DNA of 64,000 nt from Polyangiaceae bacterium (lineage in GTDB: Bacteria; Myxococcota_A; Polyangia; Polyangiales; Polyangiaceae): contig JANXOF010000012.1 in NCBI GenBank assembly GCA_025353725.1, positions 124,001 through 188,000 on the forward strand, given 5' to 3'. The notes below the pieces were generated by a model. That model was not told the DNA's origin and did no database searches. It worked only from the letters and a program-made list of their open reading frames with translations. A program made the position numbers and the translations under genes. Below, piece after piece: positions 2,488 to 31,256 of the stretch; positions within the stretch are counted from its first letter, which is position 1; each line of letters opens with the position of its first letter.

Positions 2488-3651
2488 CTAGCGGCAGAAG
2501 CCGTCAATGCAAACCTGAGCGGCTTTGCAGACCTTCAGCTGCGTCGGGTCGCAGTCGCTGCCCAGGTTCGTGGCAGAGCCGCAAACCGCATGTGCACCGG
2601 ATGTTGTCATGACGCTTTTGCAGACGTTGAACGCGTCGGCGCTCTTGCATGCCTCGGGGCTGCTCGCCTCACATGCGATGTAGCAGCTGTGGCGGAGGCA
2701 AACGCTGCCCGCCTGGCACTTGTCTTGGACTCCGTCGATGCCGCACGTGAAGACGGGGCGCTCTTCAGGCGTGCAACCACCGTCGACGCACGTAAGCCCT
2801 GCGAGGCAGCTCGACCCGGCGCGGCATCGCTCGACGCAGTGCTCTTCGACACACACGCTATCGCTTGAGCACGGTGACGAGGCGGAGCAGGTTCCTTTTG
2901 AGCCCGTGCAGACCCCGGTAGCCACATCGCATCCGTACCCCGTTGGGCACGCCCGTGTGGCCGCGCAGGACGGGGTGCACGACCCTTGAACGCACTGCGA
3001 TCCAGCGGCGCACTGCGTGGCGTCGGCGCACTGATCGCCGGGCGCGACGCACGTGCCGGTGAGGCATTTCGAGCCTGCTGGCGCTCCCGCTTGCGATGAG
3101 CAATCGCGATCCGCCTTGCATTCGGAAACGCGGCCCAGCGGGAGTGTGGGCTCGCACGTGGCCGCGCCACTACCGACCTTACACACGAAGTCTGAGCTGC
3201 ACCCCCAGCGCGAGCAGTCGCCGCTGTGGCACGTATTGTCCGAACCGCAGACCGCGTCGGGGCTGGTACCGCAGTCCGAGCGCTGCTTGCAGGCCGTTGG
3301 CTGAGACGTAGGTGAGGTGCCCGAAGGAGCGCACCTCGAACGCGTGCTGCACTCGAAACCGGTCGGGCACTCCGCGTCGGCGGAGCAGGTGTAAGAGTCA
3401 CATTGGCTCGTTAAATACGGAGCCGGGCAGATGTAGCACTGACTGCTATCGCACACTCGGTTGTAACGGTCGTCGCTCTCATAGATGGGGCAACCGCTCA
3501 TGAGAGCCACGCCTAGGCCAAGGCCAGCACTGACCAAGCAGGCGAAGACTGGCGACCTTGTCGGAGGTGTCGCATGCGCCGCTCGCACGGGACGCAGGAT
3601 GGTTCGCAGCGCGGAGAGCTTCGTGTAGAGCAAGGGATTGGTCTTCTTCAT
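2488..3651 (-). CDS. Cys-rich secreted lipoprotein
   Basis: 387 residues from the ATG at 3651 (MKKTNPLLYTK), which has a strong GGAGGAA site about 7 nt upstream; the 27-residue extension of the open frame is rejected for that reason. A hydrophobic segment ends in the lipobox ALMSGC. The mature part is a string of short disulfide-type modules of the form DCGTSPDAVCGSDNTCHSGDC and CxxDxxCPTGxxC, spaced 8-15 residues apart, as in the Dickkopf-like/EGF-like Cys-rich lipoproteins common in Myxococcota. It is likely displayed on the outer membrane or secreted, with an unknown binding role. Divergent from the next gene across 227 bp. Confidence 0.8.
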   Translation of the reverse strand: MKKTNPLLYTKLSALRTILRPVRAAHATPPTRSPVFACLVSAGLGLGVALMSGCPIYESDDRYNRVCDSSQCYICPAPYLTSQCDSYTCSADAECPTGFECSTRSRCAPSGTSPTSQPTACKQRSDCGTSPDAVCGSDNTCHSGDCSRWGCSSDFVCKVGSGAATCEPTLPLGRVSECKADRDCSSQAGAPAGSKCLTGTCVAPGDQCADATQCAAGSQCVQGSCTPSCAATRACPTGYGCDVATGVCTGSKGTCSASSPCSSDSVCVEEHCVERCRAGSSCLAGLTCVDGGCTPEERPVFTCGIDGVQDKCQAGSVCLRHSCYIACEASSPEACKSADAFNVCKSVMTTSGAHAVCGSATNLGSDCDPTQLKVCKAAQVCIDGFCR

Positions 3652-3878
3652 GGCGCGTTCCTCCGCGACCGATTCAACGTCGTTTTGGGACGTTAGCAAT
3701 GGCCGTGCCATTAACCAAGCGCGCATCGGCACGCGGGATGACCGCAGAAGCCGTCGAACGTTTCGGAAATCGTTGACTGCGGTTCACGATGCCACGTGGC
3801 CAAGGCACAACGCTCGAACGGGTAGCCCACGGCGAAGGGCACCATGGTACGATCCCGCTGGAGGACTGACCTGACGAT

Positions 3879-6011
3879 ATGGACGTCAGATGTGAACGCT
3901 GCAGCACGGAGTACGAATTCGACGACGCGCTTATAAGCGGTCGCGGGACGACCGTGAAGTGCACGAACTGCGGTCATCGGTTCAAGGTCCGGCGGCCGGG
4001 GGCGGACGTCGGCGAAGACTTTTGGAACGTTCAAACGGCGGATGGTCGCCAGCTCATCTTCGGTTCTCTTCGAGAGTTGCAGCGCGGGATTCACGCGCAG
4101 GTCGTCGATCGAGGAGACTTTCTTTCGCGGCCCGGATTCGGCGAGCGATCCATCGGAAGTATCCCCGAGTTGGCGCCGTTCTTTCAGCCGGTTGACCGTG
4201 CGTCTCCCGTCGCGGAGGGCGCGATGCCTTCGGCGTCCTCGGCGAGGCCCTCCCAACCGCCGCCGGCACTCGACGGGGCTGCGCCCGAATTCGCGTCGTT
4301 TCCACCGGTGCGGCAACGCATGAGCACACAGACGGACTTTCCTCCTTTGCGGCCGGAGGGCCAGTCGCCGCTTGAGAGCGTTCTTTCGACGGAGCGCACG
4401 CTCTCGAACCGCCCCATCGAAGAACGAGCCGAAACGGCGACGGCGGAACCCGGACCCGCAGCGCCACACGCGGATCCTGGGGTACAGACGGTTCACGAAG
4501 GTGCGTCTGTCGACCTCCCGCCGACGACGTCGGGCGTTACGAAGCTCGCGCCGACCGATTCGCCCGAGCCCCGCAGCCCACCGGAGGCGGAGGATGCAGA
4601 ACGGATGCCATGGCCGTCCGCAACAGAATCTGAGGCGCTTTACGGCTCTGCCAACGTGGTCGGAGGGTCGAGACCATCGCTTTATGACAGTCTTCTACCC
4701 CCTCGGAAGAGTCGCACGGGCCTCGTGGCCCTCGCTGTCGTGGTGGGGGCCGGTCTCGCGGGCGCGGTGTGGTCACGCGAGAGTCTACGCAGCATGATCG
4801 CGTCGCGACGCGCATCGCCGTCCGCGCCATCTTACGCGCTCGACGGCCGTGTCGCTGGCTTGGTCGAGGTCGGGGAAAAGGCACTTGCCGACGGGAATTT
4901 TGAATCGGCCAAGGAAAGCTTCGACAAGGCGAGCGCTCTCGCTGAGCACGACCCTCGCGTGCTGCTCGACGCGGCTCGGCTCGCGTCAATTCGGGCAGAC
5001 ATCGTGTGGCTAAAACTCAAGCTGCTCCCGCCGGACGCAGTGACTGAGCATCGACTTGCGGCGGCGGAGCTGGCGGACCGCTTGGCCGCCGCGCGCAAAG
5101 CGGCGGACGATGCCTTGGCCGTCGCAGAAGGGGACCCGACGGCGCTACGCACCAAGCTTGAGACGTTGCGGATGGCAGGCAATACCGTCGGTGCACGCGC
5201 TCTCGCGTTGAAGCTCGTGCCGTTTGCCTCACAACCCGAGACGGCCTACGCGCTCGCAACGCTTGAGTTTATAGAATCCGCGCCCGTGTGGCCGAAAGTT
5301 ATCGAACCTCTTAGGCTTGCGGCGAAGAGCGAGTCGGGCCCCGGGCGTGCGCGGGCCATGCTCGTCTATGCGCTCTTAGGCTCGGGCGATAGGGAGCGCG
5401 CGCAAAGGGAACTCTCGGCGCTGGCTCAAATGCCTCGACCGCATCCGCTTTTACCGTGGCTCGTCAGCTTTGCGAACCGAACGAAGGGGACGGACAGCAA
5501 GGACGCGGGAGTCAGCGCTCAGGTCGCGGACGGTGGGCGTGTGTTCGCGGAGCGTGCAGACAGACAAGAATTCCGCCCGACGGACGCTCGACAGCTTGTG
5601 GCGCTGGGCGATGCCGCGCGCGCACGCGGTGACCTTGACCGAGCGCTGAAGTGGTTTTCCGCGGCACTCGAGCGAAGCCCAGGAGACGCGGAGGCTCTGA
5701 ATGGCGTCGCGTCGGTCGCGCATGCGCGGCGTGACCTGACTGGGGCTCGTGCGGCCTACAAGCGTGTACTCTCCGTCAACGCGAGCTACGTCCCGGCTCT
5801 CGTCGGCCTCGGCGATGTCGACTGGGACTCGGGGGATCGGGGGTCTGCGATGAAAACGTACAAGGAAATCGTCGACCGATTCCCCGAGAGTTCCTATCCG
5901 ATTCGGATCAAACGTCGCGTCGAGGCTGCAGGGTCGGCCCCGGAAGCTGTTGCTCCACCCTCTTTCTCGTCGCCTCGTTCGACTAACTCGCCTGCGCCGA
6001 GTGACCCGTAG
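3879..6011 (+). CDS. MJ0042-type zinc-ribbon / TPR membrane protein
   Basis: 710 residues. The N-terminus is an MJ0042/YjhX-like zinc ribbon with C5, C8, C28 and C31. Residues 48-102 (FWNVQTADGRQLIFGSL...) form a small GYF-like sensor-type module. A Pro/Ala/Glu-rich linker runs to 278, then one transmembrane helix (about 280-298, LVALAVVVGAGLAGAVW), then TPR-like repeats from about 310 to 690. This cytoplasmic zinc ribbon, membrane helix and periplasmic TPR order is a recurrent Myxococcota design for envelope machinery. It is the first gene of a four-gene operon; the next start is 2 nt downstream. Function is unknown. Confidence 0.8.
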   Translation: MDVRCERCSTEYEFDDALISGRGTTVKCTNCGHRFKVRRPGADVGEDFWNVQTADGRQLIFGSLRELQRGIHAQVVDRGDFLSRPGFGERSIGSIPELAPFFQPVDRASPVAEGAMPSASSARPSQPPPALDGAAPEFASFPPVRQRMSTQTDFPPLRPEGQSPLESVLSTERTLSNRPIEERAETATAEPGPAAPHADPGVQTVHEGASVDLPPTTSGVTKLAPTDSPEPRSPPEAEDAERMPWPSATESEALYGSANVVGGSRPSLYDSLLPPRKSRTGLVALAVVVGAGLAGAVWSRESLRSMIASRRASPSAPSYALDGRVAGLVEVGEKALADGNFESAKESFDKASALAEHDPRVLLDAARLASIRADIVWLKLKLLPPDAVTEHRLAAAELADRLAAARKAADDALAVAEGDPTALRTKLETLRMAGNTVGARALALKLVPFASQPETAYALATLEFIESAPVWPKVIEPLRLAAKSESGPGRARAMLVYALLGSGDRERAQRELSALAQMPRPHPLLPWLVSFANRTKGTDSKDAGVSAQVADGGRVFAERADRQEFRPTDARQLVALGDAARARGDLDRALKWFSAALERSPGDAEALNGVASVAHARRDLTGARAAYKRVLSVNASYVPALVGLGDVDWDSGDRGSAMKTYKEIVDRFPESSYPIRIKRRVEAAGSAPEAVAPPSFSSPRSTNSPAPSDP

Positions 6012-6013
6012 AC

Positions 6014-9000
6014 GTGTCGAAGGACGGCGGCTCGAATAGCCGAGGCGTCATGACCTCGCATGCCTCAGGCGCGCGGCTCGAGTCGGCGGATGGGGTGAGG
6101 CCTCGCCGAGTGCGATCAGAACCACGCGCTTCGTCGACCTCACGGGTGTCGATCGAGCGTCGGACTGGGCGCTTCGCGGAGGCCGCTCAGCTTCGCGCGC
6201 GGATGGACATGGCGCGCGAACTTGGCGACGTCACAGAGGAGCGCGTGGTGACTCGTGCGCTTGCGGTGCGCCTTGCCGCGCAGGGCTCCGCGATCGACGA
6301 GGCGATCGAACTTGCCTCGGCCGCTCTCGCGCGTGCCGAGGACGCTGAGCTGCGGGGCATGCTCGTCGGATGGCTTGAGGGGCTTGGTGAACCCGGACTT
6401 GCGGCCTCCGAATTGCGAAAGTCGACTTCGCGGGAAACCCTCGGAGGCTCGGCGTCGCGGTTCGTGCGAATCGGGATTCTCCACGCGCGCGCGGACGATC
6501 CCCTTGGCGCTCGAGACGCGTTTTTGGACGCGGCCGGATGCGACGAACGGGATGCGCGTCCACTTGAACTTCTTGGCGCCTATGTCGCTTCGGGGCGGAC
6601 AACGTTCGCGAGCGAGGTCGGTATAGAGGCCTACGTACGAGCGGCCGAGAGGCGCTCCCGGGCGGGCGACGTCGTGGGAGAGCTTGAAGACTTGCAGCGA
6701 GCGTTCGAACTCGGTCCTTCGAACGCGATCGCCGCGGCATCGCTCGTCGCCGCGTACACGGCGCGCGGAAACCTTCAAGCCACCGACGCAGTGCTTCGTC
6801 GGCACGGGTCGCTACTTTCTGACGGGAGCGCTCGGACAGAAGGCGAAACGGCTTCCGAATCAGAGGCCCCCTCAGTACGTGGCATTCATGCGCGACGGCG
6901 CGCGCGCGCGCTCGAACGGGGAGACGTTGCGCGCGCGTTGGCGGCTGCGTTCGACGATAAACTCGACTCGGAGTTCGACGGAGTGTGTGCCACTGAATTC
7001 GATGCGCTGCTCGCGCGTGCCGGCCTCTTCGAGATGCTCGCGGTACGCCTCTCGATGCGCGCGGGTTCCGAAGAGCCTGATCACGGTATTGTCGCTCGGA
7101 GGTGGGCAGACCTCGGTCGCTTGTTCGAGGGCCCGCTCGCGATGCCCGAGCGTGCGATCGAGGCCTACGCGCACAGTTTCGCAGCCGACGCGACCGACGT
7201 TGACGTCCGGCAAGCCCTCCTTGCGCTAAGCGTGACATGCGACGCTTCCTCCTCCGTGGTCGAGGCGTTTATCCGGGCGACCATGGGAGCTGACGCGAGC
7301 GGCGCGTCTCCGGTCGCTGAATCTCGCCTTGCGGGAGCGCGCGCGCTTGCGGATTACTCCGAACGTGCGGGCGACCTTGCGCTCGCTTCGTGGGCGTATG
7401 GAATGGTGGGTTTGCTGGACCCAGACGACTTTGATTCGGCGCTGTCGCGTGCTCGCCTGGAAGAGTCGGCGCGTTGCCATAGCGAAGCGGTCGAGCGCGC
7501 TGAGTGCCAGCTTGACGGCTTCGACGAAAGCGACCGTGCGGCGGGTCTTGAGCGATTGGCAGGTCTCTTACGAAGCGACCCGGCACGTTCCCAAAGACTT
7601 CTCACTGTATTGAAAGAGCTCGTTTCTCTTCGTCCCTTCGATGATGAACTCCGCGCCTACGCGCTTCGTATCGCCGAGCGGCACTCGGACTTTGACGGCA
7701 TGCTAGCGCTTTGCGAGACGCTTCCTATCGTCGGAAGAGCCTCTTCGCTGGTCGCGTTTTCACTCTTGTCCGCATCGAGTCGTTCGGGAGGGGCCGCGGC
7801 CGCGGCTAACGCGGCTACGCGCCTTTTCGATCCCCAAAGTGCTTTGGGAAGTGCCGTGGCTTGGGGGCGCGCCGTCGTCTCGCGCGACGTTACGATGCGC
7901 GGCCATGCTCTCGCGGCGATAGCGGCTTCGTGCTCAACGGACGTTGCGGGCGTTCTCTTCACGATAGCGTCCGAGCAGCTTGCCCACGTGGGCGAACCCG
8001 CGCCTGCGCGAAACGCCGCCGAGCGCGGCAGTCGAGCGAACGCCGAGGATGCTCGCGCGCTTCGTGCCCTCGCGGACTCCGCCTCGCCTACGGAGGATCG
8101 TGTTTTGATTGCGGCGCTGGAGCGCGAAGCCTCCGTCCTAGGGTCGTTGACGCCGTCGGCGTGTCGCCGCCTCGCGCAGGCCTATGAGCGGGACGGGCAA
8201 AGCGTCGCTGCCGTGAATTGGGCACGCCGCGCGGTTGTCTTTAGCCCGTCCAACGGCGAGGTCATCCAGTGGCTTATTGACCTTACCGTTCGTGTGGGCG
8301 ATTCCGCGGGCCTTGCCGATGCGCTTGAGTGGACGCTCGCGCAGGCAGTCTCCGCGCGCGATACGGCGACAAGCCTCGCACCCGCGCTAAAAGCCCTCGC
8401 GGCGCGCGACCTGATGCGATCGGTCGTTATCGCGCGCCTTGCTCTCGACACCCTTGGTCCGCGTGATGCATCGCTCCGCGAGGCGATCGAGGGCGTGGCC
8501 AAGGCCGCAAAAGATGATCGCTTGAGTGTGCGGTTGATCGAACGGTGGGTCGCCGCCGGTGCCTCCTTGTCTGATCGCGCGTCCCTCCTCGTGGCGCTTG
8601 CGACTCTGTATGCGGCTTCGGGCGACGTTGAGCTTGAACTCGCCGCCTACGCGCGCGCCTTGCGATGTGGGCTCGAGCCCGGAAGTCTTCGCGCGCGTGT
8701 CGACGCACTCGGCGCGTGCGATTTGTCGCCGGACGCCGAGCTCGCTCTCGCCTCCGTTCGCGCCGCACTAAGCGTGGAGCATGGCTCGAGCGCCGACGCC
8801 GTCCGTGATCTTCGAGCATGGGGAGCGGCCCTGTGGGACATGGCTTCCGATCGACCGCGGGCGTTGCAAGCTTGGTTGCATGCCGCCGAGCTCGATACCG
8901 CGGGCGGCTACGCGACCCTGCGGCATGACCTGTCGACGTTTGCCGATGTCGGGTACGCGGCCGATTGCCTCGCAGAACTCGTTCCTCGCGAAGCTGACAG

Positions 9001-12000
9001 CTCGAGAGCTTCCTCGATCGCCACGGAAGCCGCGTACGCAGCCATTCAATCGGGCTCGTTCTCGCGCGCCTTCTCCCTTGCTCGCCTGGCGCTTGGACGT
9101 CTCGCCTCGCATGCGGAGGCCCTCGCTATCGCGGAGGTCGCAAGCGATCGTTTGGACCTTCGCGAGGAGATGGCTCCTCTTTACGAGCGCGCGGCGCGAG
9201 GCGCGCTCGGTCGGTTCGGACGCCGCGCTGTGCATCGTCGGGCTGCGCGCTTCTTTGAGCTACACCTTCCGCGGCTGGCGTTGAAACACGCCGCCCAAGC
9301 TTTTATCGCCGTACCGTCCGAAGGGATGGCCCTGAGTCTCCTCGAACGAACGGCTGTCGGTGCGGGCCGCCGAGCCGTCGCCGTACGGACTTTAGAGTAC
9401 GTGGCGGATTTTGTCCGCGACCGCGAGGTCCGCGCGGAGTGGCTCGTCCGCGCGTCACGTCTGACGTCGCGCGACGTCGAGGGGGCACGCCAAAAAGTCG
9501 ACCTTCTCCTCAAAGCGGTTGTGGCCATGCCGGCGTCGGCCACGTTGGGCATGGTGTCGGTCGCCACGCGCGAGCTTGTTTCACTCGCGGCGGACGACGA
9601 TGAAGCTCTCGCGATTCGCCTGGAGCGAGCCCACGAAGCGCTCGCGCGTGTGGCCTCAGGACCTGACGGCGCCCGCATGGCGGTTACGTTTGCAACGATG
9701 GCACTCGAGCTCTTCGACGACCCCGCGTGGGCATGGCGCGCCATCGAACGGGCGCTCGCCGCGGACGGCGACGTGGACGAATACGCTCAGCTCCTCCCGT
9801 TTGCGATCCCACTCGCGCGAGCCAAGGGGGCCTCCGAAAGCCTTGCTCGTGTGGATGCGGCTTGTGCGGGGCCTTTTTGCAACGCTGGCAGTCCGCTCTT
9901 TCGTCTGGTCGGCGAGGTTGCGCGTCTGAGGGGCGACGACGCGCGGCGGGTGCGCGCGTCTGTCCGGGCTGCGGAAAAGGAGCCTGACGATGATCTGGCC
10001 ATCGTGCACGCCGATGCCGCCGTGGCTGCCTATCCCGAAGTCGAATTCGCCGAGCGCCTCGCACGGGTCGCGGATGGTGCGCGGCGCGTCGTGGCGCTCC
10101 GCGCAGTAGCCCGAAAACAATCGGAGTGTAGTGACTTCGTCGCCGCTGTGAGCTCCCTTGAGCGGGCCTTATCCCTCGCGTCGGGCGACCAGAAGCGTGA
10201 AGTGACGGGGGAGCTTGCCGACGCTCTCGAGAGCGCAGGTCGCGTCGAAGAGGCGCGCCTTTTAGAGATTGCGGTGCCTGAACGCGAACCCAAGGAGCGC
10301 GCGGTGCTCTGGTCGTCGCTCGCGCGCATTCGGCAGCGCCGCGGGGACACTGTGGGAGGTGTCGAGGCGTTGCTTCGTGCTGCGACCGACGACCCCTGTG
10401 CGGCCCGCTGGGCTGCGGTCGAGGGAGCGGCGCATTCCGCCGCCTGCCACCAGATCTGGATTCAAGCGTTGCGGAACCTCACGCAACTCCATGGCTTTGA
10501 CGGCCGTTTCGATGCCCTAAAGCGGCTCGCCCGTGCCGAAGGTGCTCACGGCTCGAGAGTCGCTTCGGAGAGCGTGTGGCGTGATGTCCTCCAAGCTTCG
10601 CCCGGAGACGTGGAGGCCGATGCCGCTCTCGAGGCCTTGCTTGTCGCGCGACACGGTTACGACGACTTGGCTGAGCACCTCGCCCGTCGGCTCTCGGCTC
10701 TTAAAGCTTCGGGTGTCGATCACGGCGCGTTGCGCGCGCTCCGTTTGCGACGCGCGGCTGTCCTCGAGCAGCGACTGGGTCGCTTCTTGGATGCGGCGGC
10801 GGAGCTCCGGCAAGTCCTCGTCGAAACGCCTAACCACCCAAGTGCCCTACGCTGGCTCGCCGATCTGCTCGAGCGCGCAAAAGAGCCGTCGCTCGCGCTC
10901 GACGCGCTCGAGCAGATTGCGGCGACCACGACGAATCCCGGCGAGCAGGTCACTGTCGGCTTACGTCGCGTGCGCGCGCTGCTTGAAATCGGCGAGGTCG
11001 TGCGTGCGTCCGATGTCATCGCACCGTTCCTTGGTCCCGAGGCTTCTGCGGAGGTGAGAGAAGTGAACGTCGAGCTTGCGCGGGCGGTCGGTGAGGCGGG
11101 TGGGCTTGGCTCCGCGCTCGAAGACCTCGCGCGGGTGTCAAAGAGTGATCCGCGGACGAGGAGCGAGATGCTCGTCGAAGCGGCGCAGGCTGCGGCTCGC
11201 GCCGGGGATGCCGCTGCCTCGCTAAGTCGTGCCAAGAACGCGGCGTCGCTCGCGCCAGACTTGGCACCGACGCAGCTCTTCGCCCGCGGACTCGACTACC
11301 GCCTTCGCGGCGTCGGTTCTGTGGAGAACGCTCGCGCGATGGTCGCCGAGCTCCGCGGTCTCGACGGCTTAGAAAGCCTCGAACCCGAAGATGTTGCGCT
11401 GCATGCCTTCCTTTTGGCCGAGGCGGAAGACGTGATTACCCCTGGTACGGGAGAAGCCACGCTCCGCGCGTGTCTCGGAGCGATTGGACCGCACGCGCTC
11501 GTCGCGCTGGGCCTTGCGGAGCGCGCGATGGTCGACCGTCGTAGTGACGATGCGCTTCGCTTTTTCGCAGGCGCACTCGAAGGCGATCTTCTCGGACTGC
11601 GCGTCCAGGGTCGCGTGGCGCTTTCTGCGGCGGAGGCCGCGGAGCACGCGTGCGACGGTGATGCGCTCCTTGGGTTCCTCGACCGCGCGGTGAGAGATCC
11701 GGAGACGCGTCGCGTTGCGATGAGTCGCCTGAACCAGTTTGGTCTGATTGTTCATGACGTCTCGCGCGCGCGTCACTTACTCCGGGAACTTGCCGGTGGG
11801 CTCGAGGGCTCCGACAAAGCCGAGGTTCTTTCACAGCTCGCGCGGATCTTGTTCGAGTCGATGTTGCCGAGCGAGCGAATCGAGGCCGACAGAACCTTCC
11901 GCGAAGCGATTGACCTCGCCCCTGACGAGATCGCGGGCCGTCTCCGCGATCAGCTCGACGGCTTTCGCTCGCGTCCGCCTTCGCTTTCTCGCGACGTTCA

Positions 12001-13213
12001 GGCGCCACGAAGTCATCCGCCCGAAGGGGAGTTGCTCGAGGATCGCCGACTGCCGACGCCGCCCCCGGGCTGGCCCGCGCCGCGCCAGGCTGAGGGCCAA
12101 GCGAACCCGAGCGCCGCACTGCGAGCGATGGCCGTTATCGGACAGGTTCGGTCTCTCCCGCCTCTCGCATCGCGGCTCAAGGAGCTTCGGCGGGCTATCG
12201 ATTCACAACCCTTTGATAGGTCCCGGCTCGTCGCGCTTCGCGATGCCGTGCAGGCGGACAACAACCCGAACTCCGTGCGTGCGATAGATCACGTACTTCG
12301 CGCGTTTGACCGTGCTGAGGCCGCCGATTCGGCGCCGGTCGCCATTCCGCCGCTGGGGATACAGAACGCGCAGCCCGGGATGTTCTCTTGGCTGACGAGC
12401 CACTCGAATGCTCCCGCCGGCGAGGCGCTTCGCGAAGTGTGGGATGGCGCGCGTGTGCTCCTCGCAAAGCCGCCTTCGGCCTATCGGATGACCGGGCTCG
12501 AGCGCGTGTCACCTGGGCCTTCGGGAACGCTCTCGCGACTCTCCGAAGTCGCGCGGAGGTTGCTCGCCACACCGCGATTCGACTTGTTTCATCGTCGCGC
12601 GGACCACCCTCTCGCGCTCCGTGTCGCCCTCCTTCAGCATCCCTCGGCGATCGTCGAGGGCCGAGCTGACGATGACAGCGCGACGCTGCGCTGGACCTTG
12701 GGGCATGCGCTCGCGATGTCGGTGCCTCAAATTGCGCTCACCCTCGGGGTCCCCTCTGGAGAGGCGCGCCGCACCTGGGAGACGCTCCTCGCCGCGTTCG
12801 GACCGAAGGGATGCGTCAAGCTTGACCGCGCGGATCCGCAGCTCGCCGAGTTTCTATGGCAGACGCTCCCTCCGCGTGCCCAAAAACGCATTGCGGATCT
12901 CCTCCTCGTGGATTCCCCCGCTTTCGACACCGTTGTCGAGCGGGCCGTGCTCAGCAGTCACCGTCTGGGCTTATTTCTTGGGGGAGACTTCGATGCGGCG
13001 GCGCGCGCGGTGCTCGCGGAGCATCCCGAGCTTGACCAAACCTGTCTCGACCGACCGGGCGGCCTGGCTAGCCTTTGCCACTCCCTTCCGGTGCTCACCG
13101 ACCTCTATCGCTTTGCCGTTACACCTGAATACGCCGACGCGCGATGGTACGCGCCCTCCGCGGTGTCGCTTCGCGCGCCATCGGTTTCGGGCGTGCCGAC
13201 GAGTGCGACTTGA
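6014..13213 (+). CDS. giant alpha-solenoid (TPR-like) protein, 2,399 residues
   Basis: GTG start 2 nt after the previous stop. The whole sequence reads as alternating amphipathic helices rich in Ala, Arg, Leu and Asp, with many TPR-like units (for example AFELGPSNAIAAASLVAAY and RAVVFSPSNGEVIQWLIDL). Residues from about 2000 form a Pro/Arg-rich linker followed by a different, more globular C-terminal domain of about 270 residues starting near MTGLERVSPGPSG. No signal peptide or membrane helix is visible, so it probably sits in the cytoplasm with the zinc-ribbon domain of the upstream protein. The frame is intact for 7.2 kb, which argues for selection. Biochemical role unknown. Confidence 0.85.
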   Translation: MSKDGGSNSRGVMTSHASGARLESADGVRPRRVRSEPRASSTSRVSIERRTGRFAEAAQLRARMDMARELGDVTEERVVTRALAVRLAAQGSAIDEAIELASAALARAEDAELRGMLVGWLEGLGEPGLAASELRKSTSRETLGGSASRFVRIGILHARADDPLGARDAFLDAAGCDERDARPLELLGAYVASGRTTFASEVGIEAYVRAAERRSRAGDVVGELEDLQRAFELGPSNAIAAASLVAAYTARGNLQATDAVLRRHGSLLSDGSARTEGETASESEAPSVRGIHARRRARALERGDVARALAAAFDDKLDSEFDGVCATEFDALLARAGLFEMLAVRLSMRAGSEEPDHGIVARRWADLGRLFEGPLAMPERAIEAYAHSFAADATDVDVRQALLALSVTCDASSSVVEAFIRATMGADASGASPVAESRLAGARALADYSERAGDLALASWAYGMVGLLDPDDFDSALSRARLEESARCHSEAVERAECQLDGFDESDRAAGLERLAGLLRSDPARSQRLLTVLKELVSLRPFDDELRAYALRIAERHSDFDGMLALCETLPIVGRASSLVAFSLLSASSRSGGAAAAANAATRLFDPQSALGSAVAWGRAVVSRDVTMRGHALAAIAASCSTDVAGVLFTIASEQLAHVGEPAPARNAAERGSRANAEDARALRALADSASPTEDRVLIAALEREASVLGSLTPSACRRLAQAYERDGQSVAAVNWARRAVVFSPSNGEVIQWLIDLTVRVGDSAGLADALEWTLAQAVSARDTATSLAPALKALAARDLMRSVVIARLALDTLGPRDASLREAIEGVAKAAKDDRLSVRLIERWVAAGASLSDRASLLVALATLYAASGDVELELAAYARALRCGLEPGSLRARVDALGACDLSPDAELALASVRAALSVEHGSSADAVRDLRAWGAALWDMASDRPRALQAWLHAAELDTAGGYATLRHDLSTFADVGYAADCLAELVPREADSSRASSIATEAAYAAIQSGSFSRAFSLARLALGRLASHAEALAIAEVASDRLDLREEMAPLYERAARGALGRFGRRAVHRRAARFFELHLPRLALKHAAQAFIAVPSEGMALSLLERTAVGAGRRAVAVRTLEYVADFVRDREVRAEWLVRASRLTSRDVEGARQKVDLLLKAVVAMPASATLGMVSVATRELVSLAADDDEALAIRLERAHEALARVASGPDGARMAVTFATMALELFDDPAWAWRAIERALAADGDVDEYAQLLPFAIPLARAKGASESLARVDAACAGPFCNAGSPLFRLVGEVARLRGDDARRVRASVRAAEKEPDDDLAIVHADAAVAAYPEVEFAERLARVADGARRVVALRAVARKQSECSDFVAAVSSLERALSLASGDQKREVTGELADALESAGRVEEARLLEIAVPEREPKERAVLWSSLARIRQRRGDTVGGVEALLRAATDDPCAARWAAVEGAAHSAACHQIWIQALRNLTQLHGFDGRFDALKRLARAEGAHGSRVASESVWRDVLQASPGDVEADAALEALLVARHGYDDLAEHLARRLSALKASGVDHGALRALRLRRAAVLEQRLGRFLDAAAELRQVLVETPNHPSALRWLADLLERAKEPSLALDALEQIAATTTNPGEQVTVGLRRVRALLEIGEVVRASDVIAPFLGPEASAEVREVNVELARAVGEAGGLGSALEDLARVSKSDPRTRSEMLVEAAQAAARAGDAAASLSRAKNAASLAPDLAPTQLFARGLDYRLRGVGSVENARAMVAELRGLDGLESLEPEDVALHAFLLAEAEDVITPGTGEATLRACLGAIGPHALVALGLAERAMVDRRSDDALRFFAGALEGDLLGLRVQGRVALSAAEAAEHACDGDALLGFLDRAVRDPETRRVAMSRLNQFGLIVHDVSRARHLLRELAGGLEGSDKAEVLSQLARILFESMLPSERIEADRTFREAIDLAPDEIAGRLRDQLDGFRSRPPSLSRDVQAPRSHPPEGELLEDRRLPTPPPGWPAPRQAEGQANPSAALRAMAVIGQVRSLPPLASRLKELRRAIDSQPFDRSRLVALRDAVQADNNPNSVRAIDHVLRAFDRAEAADSAPVAIPPLGIQNAQPGMFSWLTSHSNAPAGEALREVWDGARVLLAKPPSAYRMTGLERVSPGPSGTLSRLSEVARRLLATPRFDLFHRRADHPLALRVALLQHPSAIVEGRADDDSATLRWTLGHALAMSVPQIALTLGVPSGEARRTWETLLAAFGPKGCVKLDRADPQLAEFLWQTLPPRAQKRIADLLLVDSPAFDTVVERAVLSSHRLGLFLGGDFDAAARAVLAEHPELDQTCLDRPGGLASLCHSLPVLTDLYRFAVTPEYADARWYAPSAVSLRAPSVSGVPTSAT

Positions 13214-13215
13214 AC

Positions 13216-13815
13216 ATGACGAAGGTCGCCCGTGCCACTCTAGGCCGCGCGGTTGTGCCGCTGACGGTGGTGGCAGCTCTCGTGCTTTTTGTGGGTCAAG
13301 ATGCGTGCATTCTCGCCGCGCCTGTGGGTGAGCTTGCGCGGCTGCCGGAGTCTAGACCTACGATTCTGCACTCTTCTCTCGTGCCTTCAGGGCCGCTCAT
13401 TACGCAATTTCCCTCGACATTCCTCGTGCCGGTGGAGCTCTCTGACCCTCGCTCCCGTGTCGCGTATGCAGTATTTGTCGATTACAATCCAGATACAGGA
13501 AAAGGACTCGTCGATACGCCCGGGCATAGCGACCCTCCCTCCGCTTTGGCAGGTCTAAAAGATCGTGTTCGCGTCATTCCTATCTCCGTGCCGGCGCCGC
13601 TGGAGATTTTTCGTTGCCATAAGATTGAAATCGTCGTCGCACTTCGTCTGGAATCCGAAAAAGATCCGAAGCTCGCGCACACGCCCGCGGATCCGGGGGG
13701 CGATATTGCGACATGGCTCTATAATCCGGCAGGAGACTTGAAGGGGTGTCCCGCGCTCGACGTCGACGCTTCCGCGCCCGTGGACGCCGAAGCAGGTGAC
13801 GGAGCTGTTCGTTGA
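13216..13815 (+). CDS. exported protein of unknown function
   Basis: 199 residues from the ATG at 13216; the open frame extends 72 nt further into the preceding gene, but this start follows its stop directly. N-terminus MTKVARATLGRAVVPLTVVAALVLFVGQDAC is a signal-type hydrophobic segment; the Cys could be a lipidation site, although QDAC is a poor lipobox. The mature part includes a beta-rich segment (STFLVPVELSDPRSRVAYAVFVDYN) and an Asp/Ala-rich tail. I do not recognise a family. It overlaps the next gene (TTGA), so the two products are probably made together. Confidence 0.7.
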   Translation: MTKVARATLGRAVVPLTVVAALVLFVGQDACILAAPVGELARLPESRPTILHSSLVPSGPLITQFPSTFLVPVELSDPRSRVAYAVFVDYNPDTGKGLVDTPGHSDPPSALAGLKDRVRVIPISVPAPLEIFRCHKIEIVVALRLESEKDPKLAHTPADPGGDIATWLYNPAGDLKGCPALDVDASAPVDAEAGDGAVR

Positions 13816-15644
13816 CGCGTCGGAGCCGCTGCTTGGCGATTTTTGCTCTCGCCGGTACGCTCGCGGTGGTCTGTCCTGTTGCGGCGTGTGGGCCTATCCG
13901 CGGCGCCTCCCTCACCGAAGCTCCAAGAAACGAGGGGTGTCCTGACCGCAATCGCTGCACGGCGTACGCCGTAGTCCCCGGGGCGAAAACAGTTCCGCAA
14001 TGCAATCAAGGACGGTGCGAGTTCGGCCGCCCTGACTACCCGTTTAACGTCGTTGTCGACGTCCCGACGTCATCCGTATTTGCGCCGGGTCGGAGCTTTG
14101 TCCTAAGTCGCGCCGACCTCAGCGGCGACCCCGGAACCCCGATACGCGGCTCGTGTGTGGCGCCAGCATGCGTGACGTTGCCGCCGCTCGTGCGAGGTGA
14201 GGGGAAGTACCTCGTCAGCGCCCGCGCCGCGCGTGCGGTTGGCTTTCCGCTGCCGGACGGCACGTCGTTGCCGCTGCGCGTTTCGTTTATTCCGCTGGTA
14301 GAGGGAACCCTAAACGAGGCCGAGGCGTTCGGACTGCCCGTCGAGCCTTTACTGACCGTGTCGCGGTTCGTCCGTAAAGAATTGGCGAAGCCCGCCGAGG
14401 TCTCCTACGTTGACGCGCTTTCCGTCGGTAGCTATCTCCGCGTCGCGTATCCAGAGCCGCCGTTCGACGCGTACTTTCCTCCGGCTATGACCGGTATCGG
14501 TATTAGCGATACGTTCGTCGATAACTTCTTACTAGGCGATGTAAAAACGCCGTTAGACGATGAAACGGGGGAGTCGCGGCGCGCCGCCTTATCGCGCGCA
14601 GAAGGGCTCGATGGATGGCGCGTTTGGCTCGTCGATTCGCTTACGCAACGCCGCATATCGTCGATACACCAGCTCGCTGGAAAGTCCGAATCTGTCACGC
14701 TTCATACGGTCGGGTGGAGTCAGAGCACGTCACCCTCCCTCAAGGAGGACGTAGAGGTCGTCGTGGCGCCGCCCGAGGATTGGATTGCCGTGCCCCGGCT
14801 CCAAAGCAAACTTATCAATGGCCAGGGCCTTGAAAAGCTTGATATCCCGAGACTTCCTAAGCCAGCTTCTGCGTCGGGCATGGTGGTCGACGGCCTTCGC
14901 GTCGGGCTTGCCAGCCCAGGCGCTGGCGTTCCGTCGAGGCTGCTCTTTTCAAGCATCGGGCTTCGTACGCTCGAAGGTGCGCGAACGCCGCTGCTCGCGT
15001 ACAGCACGTCTGTCTCCACGGATTCCGTCGGTCGCTTTGCGACTGTCTTACCTCCGGGTCTTTATGATGTGGTTGTCGAGCCGAGTGAGGGGACTGGTTT
15101 CGCGAAGGCGAGAGCTACGTTCGATACGGCGCTTGGGCTTGTGAAAACGTATCCGTTGCCTCGCCGAACGGTGGTGACCGGCCGTGTCTCGCTCGGGGAT
15201 GGGCGCTCCTTGATTCGCACCGATGTCTTGGCGCTTCCGTCGGCGCGGCCGGCGGCCGTAACTCCGCTCGGGTCGCAGAGGCCGCTAGGACCGCGTCCAG
15301 CGAAGACGCGCACCGACGATGACGGTCGCTTCCGTTTCGAGGTCGATCAAGGCGACTATGAGCTTGTCGTACAGCCGGAGGGAGGCTTGGGATTTCCCTG
15401 GCTCCTGCGGCCTTTTACCTTCGCCGAGGGCGCCGCCGACGTCGGCCTCCTTGAAATCGGGCCTCCCGCTCGGCTTGCGTTTCGCCTCGTCGACCCTAGC
15501 GATCTCGGAAATCCGATCGTTCATTCGATGGTCCGCGTGTTCGCGCAACTCGACGACAAGGTCGTTCCTTCGTTCGAAGTCGGCCGTGCCATGACCGACG
15601 CTGCGGGCGAGGTCGAAGTGCTTGTGCCGTATCAGCCACGCTAA
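13812..15644 (+). CDS. lipoprotein with carboxypeptidase-regulatory-like domain
   Basis: 610 residues from a TTG overlapping the previous stop (TTGA). Signal segment CLAIFALAGTLAVVCPVAAC ends in the lipobox VAAC. The Cys-containing segment after it (CPDRNRCTAY, CNQGRCEFG) is followed by beta-rich sequence. The C-terminal half has two carboxypeptidase-D-regulatory-like beta modules: VVVEPSEGTG, and VVTGRVSLGDGRS with DDDGRFRFEVDQGDYELVV. Likely an outer-membrane or periplasmic structural partner of the solenoid system. Last gene of the 3879-15644 operon; it converges on the next gene with a 40 bp gap. Confidence 0.75.
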   Translation: MTRRSRCLAIFALAGTLAVVCPVAACGPIRGASLTEAPRNEGCPDRNRCTAYAVVPGAKTVPQCNQGRCEFGRPDYPFNVVVDVPTSSVFAPGRSFVLSRADLSGDPGTPIRGSCVAPACVTLPPLVRGEGKYLVSARAARAVGFPLPDGTSLPLRVSFIPLVEGTLNEAEAFGLPVEPLLTVSRFVRKELAKPAEVSYVDALSVGSYLRVAYPEPPFDAYFPPAMTGIGISDTFVDNFLLGDVKTPLDDETGESRRAALSRAEGLDGWRVWLVDSLTQRRISSIHQLAGKSESVTLHTVGWSQSTSPSLKEDVEVVVAPPEDWIAVPRLQSKLINGQGLEKLDIPRLPKPASASGMVVDGLRVGLASPGAGVPSRLLFSSIGLRTLEGARTPLLAYSTSVSTDSVGRFATVLPPGLYDVVVEPSEGTGFAKARATFDTALGLVKTYPLPRRTVVTGRVSLGDGRSLIRTDVLALPSARPAAVTPLGSQRPLGPRPAKTRTDDDGRFRFEVDQGDYELVVQPEGGLGFPWLLRPFTFAEGAADVGLLEIGPPARLAFRLVDPSDLGNPIVHSMVRVFAQLDDKVVPSFEVGRAMTDAAGEVEVLVPYQPR

Positions 15645-15684
15645 GGCGTGAAACGTGGAGGTGAGCGGAGCCGCGGGCGTACGC

Positions 15685-18183
15685 TCAACTGGCGTCGCGA
15701 GCCATTTTGAAGAGATCGGCTTCGGCGTCACGCCCTGCACTTCGCGCCTCGCGCTCGAGTGTCTCCAGGACCGTGCGATGCCTTGGCAAAAGAAGCTCGC
15801 GCCGACCTTCGGGCGCATCTTCGAGGCGTGCCGAAAGCAGCGCGAGGAGGTCCATACTTCGACCGAGCCGCGTGAGGAGGACGACGAGTTCGTCCACGAC
15901 GGCGTCGTTACTTGGATCGCCTTGGAGTGTGCGGGTCAGTGCCTCGACACGCATTGCCGCTTCGGCGTCATCCGACCCGACATCGCGCTCGGATTCAAAA
16001 GCAAAGGGCGCGGCGGCGCTTGCGGCCAGATCGCTTGTGGGCAGTTCGCCTGTGTCCAGATCGGTTGCGGCCGGTTCGGCCACTTCTTCTTGACGGGGCC
16101 ATGCAGGTAGCGGTTCGACCGGAGGCCTGAGGGCGTTGTGAGCGATGAGGGCGCTCACTTCGCGGTACGTCGCGGTCAATGTTTCGTCCTCGGGCGCTAT
16201 TGATATCGCCGCTGCGAGGTGGGCCTGGGCGGCTTGCATTTCAAAGCGATCACGCTCGAACTTTGCGGCCTCTTCGAGCCAAGGTCGTGCGCTCGGCTCG
16301 CGTCCTGCGCGTTCGCGCATCCGTGCGAATGCGAGCGAAGCACCGCTCACGTCGCCGAGTTGCGCTCGTAAACGACCTTCGAGACCGCGCGCTGCAACGG
16401 CTTGCGGCGCGTCATCCGTGACCGAGCGGAGGCGTGCCACGGCCGCAGGTCGATCGCCAAGAAGCTCGCCCAGAACTCGGCCGAGTTCGAGCTGCATCCA
16501 CGAGGTCGCGACGCCGCACGCCTCGCCGGCTTCGATGGCATGGGCAAGGATCGCCGCACCGCGAGCCGCGCGACCTCCCGCTGCGAGCGACGCGCCCAGC
16601 CCCGCGAGTGCCTCGGGATCGTCCGGTTGGTAAAGGAGCGCTCGCTCGTAAAGGGTCGCCGCGTCGGCGCCGAGTCCGGACGAGCGATAGGCGTCGCCTG
16701 CGCGTCGAAGCACGTCGTGGCGTTCGCGTGGTCCGTGGGCAAGCGCCTCGAGTTCCTGAAAATCCGCGCGCGCGTCAGCGAGTCGCCCTGCTCGCAAACG
16801 CCGCTTTGCGCGCTCCCAGCGAAGTTCCGCGAGGAGTGGCGCACGGCCAAGGGCCGCGTCGAGCCACGCGAGTGCGTCGTGAGGATCGGTCGCGATCTCT
16901 GCGGCCCGCGCGAAGGCGAGCGCGGCCACGACGGGTGACGGTTCCCGCTCGCCGGCGCGCACGAAAGACGCGATGGCTCCCGCGGCGTCGCCCGCCTCGT
17001 ACCGTAGCTCACCAAAGAGGAGTCCGAGATGTGCGGACCCGCCGCTCTCGCGCAGCGTGGCCGAGGCGGATTCGGCACGGCCTCCCACAATGTGGTCGAT
17101 TTCCGCGATGCGTCGAGCGATTTCAGGATGCCTCGGGGCACGCTGAAGCGCGCTCAGATCGTACTGCCGAGCGCGTTCGGTATCGCGTGCCATGCGCGCG
17201 TCGTCGCCGTCGCGCGTGAGTATGGCCGCCTCCAGCGCAAGGGTCGCGTCATCCGGAAGCGTCGCTAAGGCGCCTCCGCGTGTGAACGCGACAACAAGTA
17301 CGCCGTCACTCTCACCCGACGCCGAGACACGCACCTCATCCGAGCTCGGCACGCGCACGCCGGCGTCGGGCAGCAGCCAGCGCGCGATGAGTCCAGCGGC
17401 GTCCGCGACGATAAAGCGAGACCCTTCACGCCTGGCGCTCCCAGCAAGCAACGCGGTAAGCGCACGGAGAGCGAGCGTTGTCGCCGGTTCCGGCAAGTGG
17501 GCTCCGCGCGCTGATCCGACGACGAGCGCAAGTGCGTCGTGCGACGGCACGAGGGTGACCTCGAACGCGAGCGCGGCAACCCGCGCGTCATGTTCGTCAT
17601 GTGCGTGGAGGGTCGCTTTGGGCACGCGGCTTTGCGCGTGAACGGTCACCGTGGCGCCAAACGCTCTTGCGGTAAGGCTGACGGCGCATGGGTCGGGCGA
17701 AAGAAGGCCGCGAAGGCGAGATTCGGCCCAGCGGGCTGTGCGTCGGGCGTCGAGCTCGACCGTCATGCGATCGAGCTCACCACGCTTGTGGCGAAACCGC
17801 GCGACGCCGCCGCTGACTTCGAAGGGAAACCGCACTTGCGGCAAGCGCACGACGAGGTCGACGATGTCCAAGCACGCGAGGCGGACGGGGGCTGCGAGTT
17901 CGAGGCCTAGCCCCTCCTTTCCGATCGCGAGGCGAAGCTGGGCGACAGAACCTCCGCGATGGCTGTCGCTCTCGAACGAACGCGCGGCGGGCGGCTCAGA
18001 CGACGACCGGACCGAAGCGCGCGCGAGGGCCTGCGCACCCAATGGCAGCGCAATTTTCGGACGTACGAGGGAAGGCGGGCCAGTCCGGCTCAAGGGCCCT
18101 AACCCTACCAATCCGAGCGGCGCGACGCGACTTTGCGTGACTTTGCTCGACGCCGCTTGGGTCCCGTGGGTAGAGGCTGTCAT
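15685..18183 (-). CDS. TPR-repeat protein
   Basis: 832 residues from an ATG at 18183. The first 350 residues are low-complexity then beta-rich (LRLAIGKEGLGLELAAPVRL). From about residue 370 to 700 there are TPR-like repeats (for example ATLYERALLYQPDDPEALAGLGASLAAGGR). No catalytic motif is visible. The frame stays open to 18414, but that extension lies in front of the divergent helicase. As annotated, the two start codons share one CATG, so at least one true start is probably further in; GTG/TTG codons exist inside this frame before the conserved part. Start uncertain, gene itself clear from codon use. Confidence 0.75.
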   Translation of the reverse strand: MTASTHGTQAASSKVTQSRVAPLGLVGLGPLSRTGPPSLVRPKIALPLGAQALARASVRSSSEPPAARSFESDSHRGGSVAQLRLAIGKEGLGLELAAPVRLACLDIVDLVVRLPQVRFPFEVSGGVARFRHKRGELDRMTVELDARRTARWAESRLRGLLSPDPCAVSLTARAFGATVTVHAQSRVPKATLHAHDEHDARVAALAFEVTLVPSHDALALVVGSARGAHLPEPATTLALRALTALLAGSARREGSRFIVADAAGLIARWLLPDAGVRVPSSDEVRVSASGESDGVLVVAFTRGGALATLPDDATLALEAAILTRDGDDARMARDTERARQYDLSALQRAPRHPEIARRIAEIDHIVGGRAESASATLRESGGSAHLGLLFGELRYEAGDAAGAIASFVRAGEREPSPVVAALAFARAAEIATDPHDALAWLDAALGRAPLLAELRWERAKRRLRAGRLADARADFQELEALAHGPRERHDVLRRAGDAYRSSGLGADAATLYERALLYQPDDPEALAGLGASLAAGGRAARGAAILAHAIEAGEACGVATSWMQLELGRVLGELLGDRPAAVARLRSVTDDAPQAVAARGLEGRLRAQLGDVSGASLAFARMRERAGREPSARPWLEEAAKFERDRFEMQAAQAHLAAAISIAPEDETLTATYREVSALIAHNALRPPVEPLPAWPRQEEVAEPAATDLDTGELPTSDLAASAAAPFAFESERDVGSDDAEAAMRVEALTRTLQGDPSNDAVVDELVVLLTRLGRSMDLLALLSARLEDAPEGRRELLLPRHRTVLETLEREARSAGRDAEADLFKMARDAS

Positions 18184-20404
18184 GATTTCAGGCGGCGGTT
18201 TGCCCGCTGGCGTCGATCGTACCGATCCTACTGAGAACGATTTTGAGCCCTTCGAAGACCTCGTCCTGAGTTCTCCGGCACGGAAGGATTCGTCGTCGGG
18301 GCTAGGTTCCGACGTCGATGCTGGCGGATCGTCCGTGGATGACGTGTTGGGTCCGAATTCTCCGCTCGCGCGCAGGCTTGCTGGATACGAGCATCGCGAA
18401 GGCCAGCTTGCCATGGCGCGCGCTGTCTACAGGGCCCTCGCACGCGACGAACATCTGTTCGTGGAAGCTGGGACCGGAACCGGGAAAACCCTCGCGTACC
18501 TTATCCCCGCGATCCTGAGCGGTCGCAAAGTCGTTGTGTCGACGGCAACGCATGCGCTGCAGGACCAGATCTTTACCAAGGATCTCCCTTTGGTCCGCGA
18601 GGTTCTTGCCGAGCACGGCGTGGAATTCAAAGCGGCGTTGATGAAAGGGCTGTCGAACTACGTCTGTAAGCGTCGGCTCCAGGAGCGACTTCGCAGCGGC
18701 GACCTGGTGTCGCCTGATCTCGCGCGAATTCAGCAGTGGGCGCTCACGTCGATGGACGGCGATCGCTCCGAGCTCGCTTTCCTCGAGGAGAGCGCCGAGG
18801 CGTGGCGCGACGTCAATTCGAGTACCGAAACCCGAATCGGTGCAGGATGCACCTATTATGACGAATGCTTCGTCACACGCATGCGCCGCGAGGCTGAGGA
18901 CGCCCAGGTGGTCGTCGTGAATCACCATCTCTTCTTCGCGGACCTCGCGCTTCGGACGGGCAAATCCGCGGGGGGCGGTTCGGCGATTCCGAATTACGAC
19001 GCTGTCATTTTCGACGAAGCTCACCAGATCGAGAACGTTGCGACGGACTTTTTCGGCGTTCGAATCTCGAGCGCGCGCATCGATTCGCTCTTGCGTGATG
19101 CGCGTCGCGGCATCGCGTCGGTCAAGCTTCTCGACTCGACGTCGATGCAAGGCGTTGACGCTGTCGAGCTCGCGGCTCACGCGTTCTTCCGTGCGTGGCA
19201 GGAGACGGGCGGCCCTGGGCGCGCTTCCTTGGTATGCGAGCCGCTGTCGGCGCGCTTGCCAACGCGAGGCGTGGAGGACAGCCGACGCATTCTAGGTGCG
19301 GAAGACTGGACTCAAAGTCGCGTCGAAGCGACCTTTCGCCTCGACTCCGCTCTCGAGATGCTCGAGCTTTTTGCGACGGCGCACGATCGGGACGACGCGG
19401 TGGCCATACTCGCGCGGCGCGCCCGTGAAGTCCGTGCCGATCTCGCGCGCATTCGGGCTACGGGTCAAACGGAGCCGCGCCACTGGGAGGAGGACGATCC
19501 CGTTGCCGGAGCGCTCGCAAAGGCCGCGGAGTCGTTCAAAAACGGCGTCGTATGGATCGACTCGCGCGAGCGCACCGTGTCGCTAGGGGCAAGCCCCGTA
19601 GAGCTTGGGTCGCTGTTGAGAAGCAAGCTCTTCGAGCGCATTCCGAGTGTCATTTGCACGAGTGCGACGCTCGCCACGGCCACGTCCGTGGGGCCTAGCT
19701 TTCACTTCATTCGGACGCGCCTCGGCGCGCTTTCCGAGACCGTCGAACTCGTCGTTCCTTCGCCTTTCGACTTCGCGACGCGCGCCGCGCTCTACGTTGC
19801 CGAAGACCTTCCGGATCCCACAGCGCCGGGATTCGACGCCGCGTCGGCGCAACGCGTGGCCGAGCTCGTCGCGATTACGGGGGGCGGAGCGTTTGTACTC
19901 TGCACATCGAACCGCGCCATGCGCGCCATTCGCGGCGCGCTTCACGGGCGTGTACCCGGCCCTCTGCTAGTGCAGGGGGAAGCTCCGAAACATGTCCTGC
20001 TCGCGCGTTTTTGTGATTCTGGGGCTGCTGTACTCGTCGCAACGATGAGCTTCTGGGAGGGCGTCGACGTACCCGGGAGTGCGCTACGGCTCGTGGTCTT
20101 GGACAAGATCCCCTTTGCGGTTCCCAGTGATCCCGTGGTCGCGGCACGGTGCGCGCGCATCGAGGCCGAAGGCGGAAATTTCTTTACCCAGTACTCGGTG
20201 CCGAGTGCGGCAATCACGCTCAAGCAGGGGTTTGGGCGCCTCATTCGTACGAAGAAAGACGCCGGGCTGGTCGCGCTTCTCGACCCCCGCGCCGCGCGAA
20301 AAGGGTACGGCAAGTTGCTCCTCGCGAGTCTTCCGCCGGCGCGCCGCGTCCGTACGCTCGATGACGTGCGCGAGTTTTGGCACGACATCGACGTCGACGC
20401 GTAA
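18182..20404 (+). CDS. DinG/XPD-type superfamily 2 DNA helicase
   Basis: 740 residues from ATG 18182. Helicase motifs read clearly: motif I EAGTGTGKT (95-103), Ia STATHALQDQ, DEAH box IFDEAH (276-281), VVNHHLFFADL before it, and motifs V/VI near the C-terminus (WEGVDVPGSALR and KQGFGRLIR). Family members unwind DNA 5'-3' during repair. Cysteines that could hold the iron-sulfur cluster are C162 (NYVC), C223 and C229; a fourth is not obvious. The conserved part starts near residue 57, so a GTG near 18335 is an alternative start. The upstream open frame back to 17651 is read-through of the antisense TPR gene and is excluded. Confidence 0.88.
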   Translation: MISGGGLPAGVDRTDPTENDFEPFEDLVLSSPARKDSSSGLGSDVDAGGSSVDDVLGPNSPLARRLAGYEHREGQLAMARAVYRALARDEHLFVEAGTGTGKTLAYLIPAILSGRKVVVSTATHALQDQIFTKDLPLVREVLAEHGVEFKAALMKGLSNYVCKRRLQERLRSGDLVSPDLARIQQWALTSMDGDRSELAFLEESAEAWRDVNSSTETRIGAGCTYYDECFVTRMRREAEDAQVVVVNHHLFFADLALRTGKSAGGGSAIPNYDAVIFDEAHQIENVATDFFGVRISSARIDSLLRDARRGIASVKLLDSTSMQGVDAVELAAHAFFRAWQETGGPGRASLVCEPLSARLPTRGVEDSRRILGAEDWTQSRVEATFRLDSALEMLELFATAHDRDDAVAILARRAREVRADLARIRATGQTEPRHWEEDDPVAGALAKAAESFKNGVVWIDSRERTVSLGASPVELGSLLRSKLFERIPSVICTSATLATATSVGPSFHFIRTRLGALSETVELVVPSPFDFATRAALYVAEDLPDPTAPGFDAASAQRVAELVAITGGGAFVLCTSNRAMRAIRGALHGRVPGPLLVQGEAPKHVLLARFCDSGAAVLVATMSFWEGVDVPGSALRLVVLDKIPFAVPSDPVVAARCARIEAEGGNFFTQYSVPSAAITLKQGFGRLIRTKKDAGLVALLDPRAARKGYGKLLLASLPPARRVRTLDDVREFWHDIDVDA

Positions 20405-31244: not shown

Positions 31245-31256
31245 ACGCGAGGTATC

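Follow-up and report, generated by a model that had tools for sequence, protein, structure and literature searches.

The window analysed here is a stretch of 64,000 nucleotides on one contig (C64) of a Polyangiaceae assembly of 6.6 Mb in 98 contigs, whose closest named relatives are Labilithrix and other Myxococcales/Polyangiaceae MAGs. Its gene cluster encodes an inner-membrane protein, a giant protein and two exported proteins (Table 1). The giant frame is uninterrupted through its 2,399 codons. Long spurious frames are common in high-GC DNA, so the length of an ORF alone is little proof; the giant could also be aligned with 20 homologous giants at 27-58% identity across residues 1010-2160, one of these being clipped by a contig end (L071) and one short (L072). 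Within its own genome the giant matched itself alone (E 0.001). The zinc-ribbon gene stops 2 nt short of the giant and the two exported genes share 4 nt. The small exported gene is listed as an ORF from 13144, and the ATG at 13216, which leaves a gap of 2 nt after the giant, was preferred because the relatives and the signal peptide indicate it. The preliminary description of this DNA had reported an unbroken 7.2 kb helical-repeat gene, tightly packed with 2-nt gaps or overlaps between a zinc-ribbon/TPR membrane protein and two exported proteins, and these claims were borne out: the frame is open from end to end, the upstream neighbor has the zinc ribbon, TPRs and membrane segment described below, each downstream protein carries a signal peptide, and the repeats were recovered both as a period of 34 residues and as matches to TPR structures.

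Table 1. Position of the genes and features of the cluster, in nucleotides of the window.
Position	Strand	Feature	Basis or remark
3879..6011	+	Inner-membrane protein with zinc ribbon, GYF-like domain, one TM and TPRs, 710 aa	Family profiles, TM prediction
3879..3986	+	Zinc ribbon, residues 1-36, predicted cytoplasmic (side inferred)	PF13717, MJ0042 models
4017..4184	+	GYF-like domain, residues about 47-102	Profile comparison
6012..6013	.	Junction of 2 nt; position of the sppA (S49) lipoprotein gene in relatives	sppA absent from the window genome
6014..13213	+	Giant TPR solenoid protein, 2399 aa, GTG start	Paralogue of GltI-like giants
12206..13210	+	C-terminal module: terminal TPR-like stretch and likely M48-like domain without active site	Model, VIA, profiles
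12680..12715	+	Degenerate active-site helix with an LGxALA-like sequence where M48 has HExxH	Residue counts in 27 sequences
12923..12982	+	Counterpart of the M48 helix that bears the third zinc ligand; Glu of this ligand in 0 of 27	Model, profile alignment
13216..13815	+	Small exported protein, no Pfam family	Signal peptide; start chosen by comparison with relatives
13812..15644	+	Exported lipoprotein with carboxypeptidase-regulatory-like domain	PF13620 1.8e-8; lipobox VAAC
15645..15684	.	Site where 10 of 11 same-genus relatives carry a TerB-like gene; absent here	Comparison with relatives

The sequence evidence supports well that the giant is a TPR solenoid with a repeat of 34 residues. The hydropathy autocorrelation, averaged over a 21-row alignment of the window giant and its 20 relatives, was highest at lag 34 (0.12 versus a maximum of 0.08 in block shuffles), so that the period of the helix-pair repeat stood above all 200 shuffles. 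When four successive stretches of ~500 residues were taken separately, lag 33 or 34 ranked top in three, tied in one of them with lags 37 and 50, and took second place in the remaining stretch. A 20-row profile of residues 690-1840 matched engineered TPR structures at E 1e-48, OGT and SKI3 near 1e-12, and LapB near 1e-6. The Pfam TPR_16 family was matched in 14 of 20 family members (E 0.01), and the support for the window giant alone was weak (best 27 bits). No signal peptide was predicted for the giant, and no convincing transmembrane segment was found, two stretches barely exceeding the hydropathy threshold. The length of the solenoid is loose in evolution, because shortened giants occur in G008 (L029, 1,630 aa, which also lacks the C-terminal domain) and in G010 (L032, 1,668 aa).

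The C-terminal end of the giant likely has an M48 fold, as suggested by profile comparisons and a structure model. An M48 domain without HExxH was proposed from the residue pattern ahead of the model. The structure prediction of the C-terminus, which the preliminary description had named as a check, was run on residues 2065-2399 with an input of 27 sequences, two of them nearly identical (L079 and L089), and gave a confident model (pLDDT 90.7, pTM 0.88). In the VIA structural comparison, BepA occupied row 1 with an rmsd of 5.0 over 156 aligned residues and a Z of 6.0, which lies in the range under 8 where a common arrangement may be reflected; Ste24p occupied row 3 (Z 4.6). By their titles, we take 22 of the top 30 rows to be zinc metallopeptidases, and five further rows are entries of anthrax lethal factor that align through their N-terminal part. 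Four alignments of the domain were used for profile-profile comparison, namely A2 (window-type, 27 sequences), A3 (10 giants), A4 (23) and A7 (six giants linked to GltG-like genes). Against seven same-clade M48 peptidases, the probability was 95.0 for A3 (E 3.8e-8), 95.0 for A4 (E 3.6e-8) and 93.9 for A7 (E 1.5e-7); the window-type A2 matched weakly (14.3, E 0.0019), and its alignment keeps the same register as the others at both motif helices. Against 16 diverse M48 sequences, A3, A7, A4 and A2 reached 89.1, 70.3, 56.7 and 0.6, respectively. Six decoy families gave at most 1.9 with the same four queries, the solenoid profile gave 0.1, and the best of 120 column shuffles (40 each of A2, A3 and A7) gave E 0.018 and probability 2.6. 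The low probability of A2 and the Z of BepA count against the M48 assignment, as does a Foldseek search of the C-terminal model against the PDB, which returned nothing at E 0.001. PDB sequence-profile searches with the domain named no peptidase, the best matches of one being TPRs at the first ~50 positions, and Pfam scans of the 27 and 10 members found no peptidase and no family common to two or more members.

To judge from its residues, this M48-like domain is likely catalytically dead. The catalytic Glu of HExxH was present in 0/27 sequences of A2 and 0/10 of A3, and in A2 the second His and the Glu of the third ligand were each found in 0/27 and the first His in 4/27. The giant was therefore not classed as a peptidase, since HExxH and the third Glu ligand are absent, and the idea of an active peptidase at its C-terminus was dropped on these residue counts.

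A scan with the A2 profile, scoring up to 8 candidates per genome, gave a match in 119 of 283 Myxococcota genomes (E 0.001); among the matches listed, most lie within ORFs of about 1,500-4,200 residues, giants of ~3,800 residues included. One giant of ~3,800 residues is preceded by a GltG-like gene that scores 305 bits with NF033760 (cut-off 650), and five more pairs of a GltG-like gene and a giant with the same C-terminal domain were read. The window genome has a GltG-like gene (273 bits) upstream of a 3,891-residue giant on contig C9, where locus L193 (921-17347) comprises the GltG-like gene, an exported-looking gene (3448-4440), a TPR lipoprotein-like gene and the giant. The window-type C-termini and those of the six GltG-linked giants matched each other over 234 columns (hhalign, probability 97.0, E 9.6e-11), and this common domain after a TPR solenoid is what marks a homologue of the GltI class. 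In a tree of the C-terminal domain with 45 rows, the window-type and GltG-linked sequences formed separate groups (100/99 each), with 12 rows outside both groups, one of which (L055) fell inside the GltG-linked branch. Because the C-termini match and the GltG-linked giant of the same genome is a separate gene, the kinship of the window giant to the GltI-like giants is well supported, and it is a paralogue of the GltI-like giant, not its orthologue. It has no linkage to a GltG-like gene and does not belong to the GltG-linked clade by its C-terminal domain, and it was rejected as the GltI of this genome since the GltG-linked giant is a different gene on contig C9. The label GltI-like rests on the GltG-like neighbor, the size and the TPRs, and the GltI of M. 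xanthus was not in the comparison. On the other side, matches to the GltG profile (15/15 genomes) and the GltJ profile all stayed below the curated cut-offs, which counts against the kinship to the Glt system.

In the accessible text of Luciano et al. (PMC3169522), GltI/AgmK (MXAN_4863, Myxococcus xanthus) is described as a 4,132-residue TPR protein with neither signal peptide nor transmembrane segment, features that the window giant has in common with it, and the group A genes including gltI are placed only in Myxococcales and Bdellovibrio, sometimes in multiple copies. A 2026 review (PMC13104615), in the portion available, presents GltI as the large intracellular scaffold of the gliding machine, which together with GltG couples motor and MreB. 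The same C-terminal domain is found in the window giant and in the GltI-like giants that neighbor GltG-like genes. On the other hand, the window giant has 2,399 residues as compared to about 3,400-4,100 for GltI, it falls in a separate clade while a GltG-linked giant is present elsewhere in the same genome, and the neighbors of window-type giants in relatives are sppA, terB and exported proteins, unlike those of GltI.

The zinc-ribbon protein matched PF13717 (5.9e-14) and TPR_19 (6.3e-14), and one transmembrane segment was predicted at residues 279-300. GltJ of the gliding machine also carries a zinc ribbon; the match of the window protein to the GltJ profile NF033761 is weak (18.5 bits over 45 positions, the curated cut-off of 450 not being reached). 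The GltJ profile matched in 29/29 genomes, never above the cut-off, and also in 4/14 control genomes, and was dropped as a marker because it is too unspecific. The second domain of the zinc-ribbon protein, which we call GYF-like, was similar to that of 10 proteins from loci retrieved with the GltJ profile (hhalign, probability 63.5, E 6.8e-5; seven decoys at most 2.7), and no match to the Pfam GYF family was found in the protein at E 0.1. No lipobox was found in the window copy of the small exported protein, and one is present in its homologues at L115 and L037. In more distant members of the order (L039, L040, L043, L045), the exported pair lies behind an FHA-GAF-sigma54 activator gene. Family-profile scans, in a set without a dedicated motor profile, recognized no motor family among the neighboring proteins, and no gltA-H-like gene was recognized among the neighbors of the giant.

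The preliminary description held that the genes would be scattered in close relatives if its grouping were wrong, which is not seen in the genus, where all 11 relatives keep the giant and the two exported genes side by side. The zinc-ribbon gene lies upstream in seven of the eight same-genus loci whose contig extends there and is absent at the G008 locus. The idea of a four-gene set did not hold, because relatives add further genes: sppA stands between the zinc-ribbon gene and the giant, or ahead of the giant, in all 9 same-genus loci extending there, and a TerB-like gene comes next in 10 of the 11 relatives. The SppA of the relatives has PF01343 (8.2e-49) and a lipobox, and a TerB-like protein of one relative has PF05099 (1.3e-7). 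Neither gene was found in the window genome, where the best match to the operon-type sppA is a general paralogue with 32% identity, and a search of the window for an sppA remnant gave none (best E 0.048). A TPR-containing protein of 909 aa (15685-18414, minus strand) stays beside the cluster in many relatives. The open-access literature, of which a part was covered and to which subscription journals do not belong, gave no description of this gene combination.

We see an even chance that the products form an envelope-spanning complex built on a GltI-class TPR scaffold, with a dead M48 end, held at the membrane and coupled to lipoproteins; the proposal draws on sequence, the structure model and analogy. 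The giant would be the cytoplasmic scaffold, a long solenoid capped by a zinc-less M48-type fold, and the dead peptidase domain would serve as the protein-docking end of the rod. The zinc-ribbon/GYF-like partner, with its single membrane crossing, might hold the scaffold at the inner membrane, and its periplasmic TPR array would couple the scaffold to the exported lipoproteins of the operon, so that the complex would span the envelope in analogy to GltI with GltG/GltJ in gliding. In relatives, SppA (S49) and the TerB-like protein may be part of the same set; both are considered accessory because they are absent here. The topology fits, with a giant devoid of a signal peptide, a zinc-ribbon protein with one transmembrane segment and two exported proteins with signal peptides, and the linkage of the genes in relatives also favors the model. 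A scaffold or envelope-organizing complex seems likelier than a complete gliding machine because no motor gene was recognized in the operon, and a role across the envelope, which the preliminary description had also proposed, is our best guess. Counting against this model, the giant of G008 lacks the C-terminal domain and its locus lacks the zinc-ribbon gene, and the giant is dispensable, since G022 and G172 keep the zinc-ribbon gene, sppA and both exported genes without it.

Alternatively, the cluster could serve envelope quality control, with the zinc-ribbon/TPR sensor, SppA, the giant and the lipoproteins acting in proteolysis or lipoprotein handling like BepA plus SppA, and the dead M48 domain binding substrates without cutting them; we consider this unlikely, if worth weighing. 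It is favored by the adjacency of sppA and the zinc-ribbon gene, which holds within the genus and also where the giant is elsewhere (L198, L199, L200, L201 and L202), and by BepA of E. coli, which heads the VIA list for the C-terminal model and, in the available sections of PMC7950410, likewise joins an M48 domain to TPRs. In BepA, however, the M48 domain with its HExxH precedes a C-terminal domain made of four TPRs, and the protein is periplasmic (PMC8423444, as far as its accessible text goes), whereas the window giant has about 2,000 TPR residues first, no signal peptide and no active site, the catalytic Glu missing in every sequence counted. As the giant lacks a signal peptide, it and SppA are expected on opposite sides of the membrane, and the window genome retains the other genes despite the loss of the operon sppA, which is not part of the window cluster. 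Of 42 genomes sampled from the family, 39 have an operon-type SppA (E 6.4e-162 or better), the exceptions being the window genome and two fragmented assemblies. In the 48 genomes that best matched the domain of the giant (E 2e-44 or better), an SppA of at least 519 bits occurs 39 times; the distance count covered 46 genomes (G025 and G294, both without such an SppA, lay outside it), and the giant and SppA are within 12 kb in 21/39 and not within that distance in 18/39, several of these 18 on short contigs. This spacing also counts against the scaffold model.

Co-occurrence of the genes across Myxococcota, the other comparison that the preliminary description had called for, gave a mixed answer, in that the block stands in the genus, that L112, L114 and L115, which come from two other genera, likewise have the zinc-ribbon gene, sppA, the giant and the lipoprotein gene together, and that elsewhere in the family the block is split into modules. 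The zinc-ribbon/sppA and giant/lipoprotein loci are on different contigs in G131, G023 and G014 and about 17 kb apart on one contig in G086, the giant is on a contig other than zinc-ribbon/sppA in G143, and in G035 a zinc-ribbon/sppA/giant block is 3.3 Mb from the exported pair, which lies beside an FHA-GAF-sigma54 gene. The separations in G035, G131, G023 and G014 would suit two or three independent modules (zinc-ribbon/sppA, the giant, and the exported pair, elsewhere with an FHA-sigma54 regulator) that are neighbors in some lineages without a joint function, a reading that we hold to be quite improbable because the modules re-join in differing combinations, all at one locus in the genus as well as in L112, L114 and L115, as zinc-ribbon/sppA/giant in G035, as zinc-ribbon/sppA/exported pair in G022 and G172, and as giant/lipoprotein elsewhere, which favors a functional link.

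The scaffold complex is thus preferred. The window giant is of a known type, the GltI class, in a gene setting different from that of the gliding cluster, and GltI-class giants would thus be used outside that cluster. More tentatively, and somewhat short of an even chance, the scaffolds of the GltI class in Myxococcota, including that of the gliding machine, may end in a dead M48 docking cap, and Polyangia may possess a second, motor-less envelope-spanning complex with its own zinc-ribbon anchor, lipoproteins and optional SppA. Giant Myxococcota proteins with weak TPR matches hereby gain a family, and the confidently modelled terminal domain may serve as a handle for finding the binding partners of GltI-class scaffolds. 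The natural losses rank the parts: operon sppA and terB are lost here, the giant in G022 and G172, and the C-terminal domain in G008.

Two other loci were noted in the window. At 29931-37392 lies a Tad-like or related secretion/pilus cluster, with genes for a secretin (PF00263 1.7e-26), a fusion of FHA with a T2SSE ATPase (7.9e-63) and another T2SSE ATPase (2.8e-49). The gene at 43754-47317 encodes a protein of 1,188 aa whose C-terminal part is a Ser/Thr kinase domain (PF00069, 4.5e-27).
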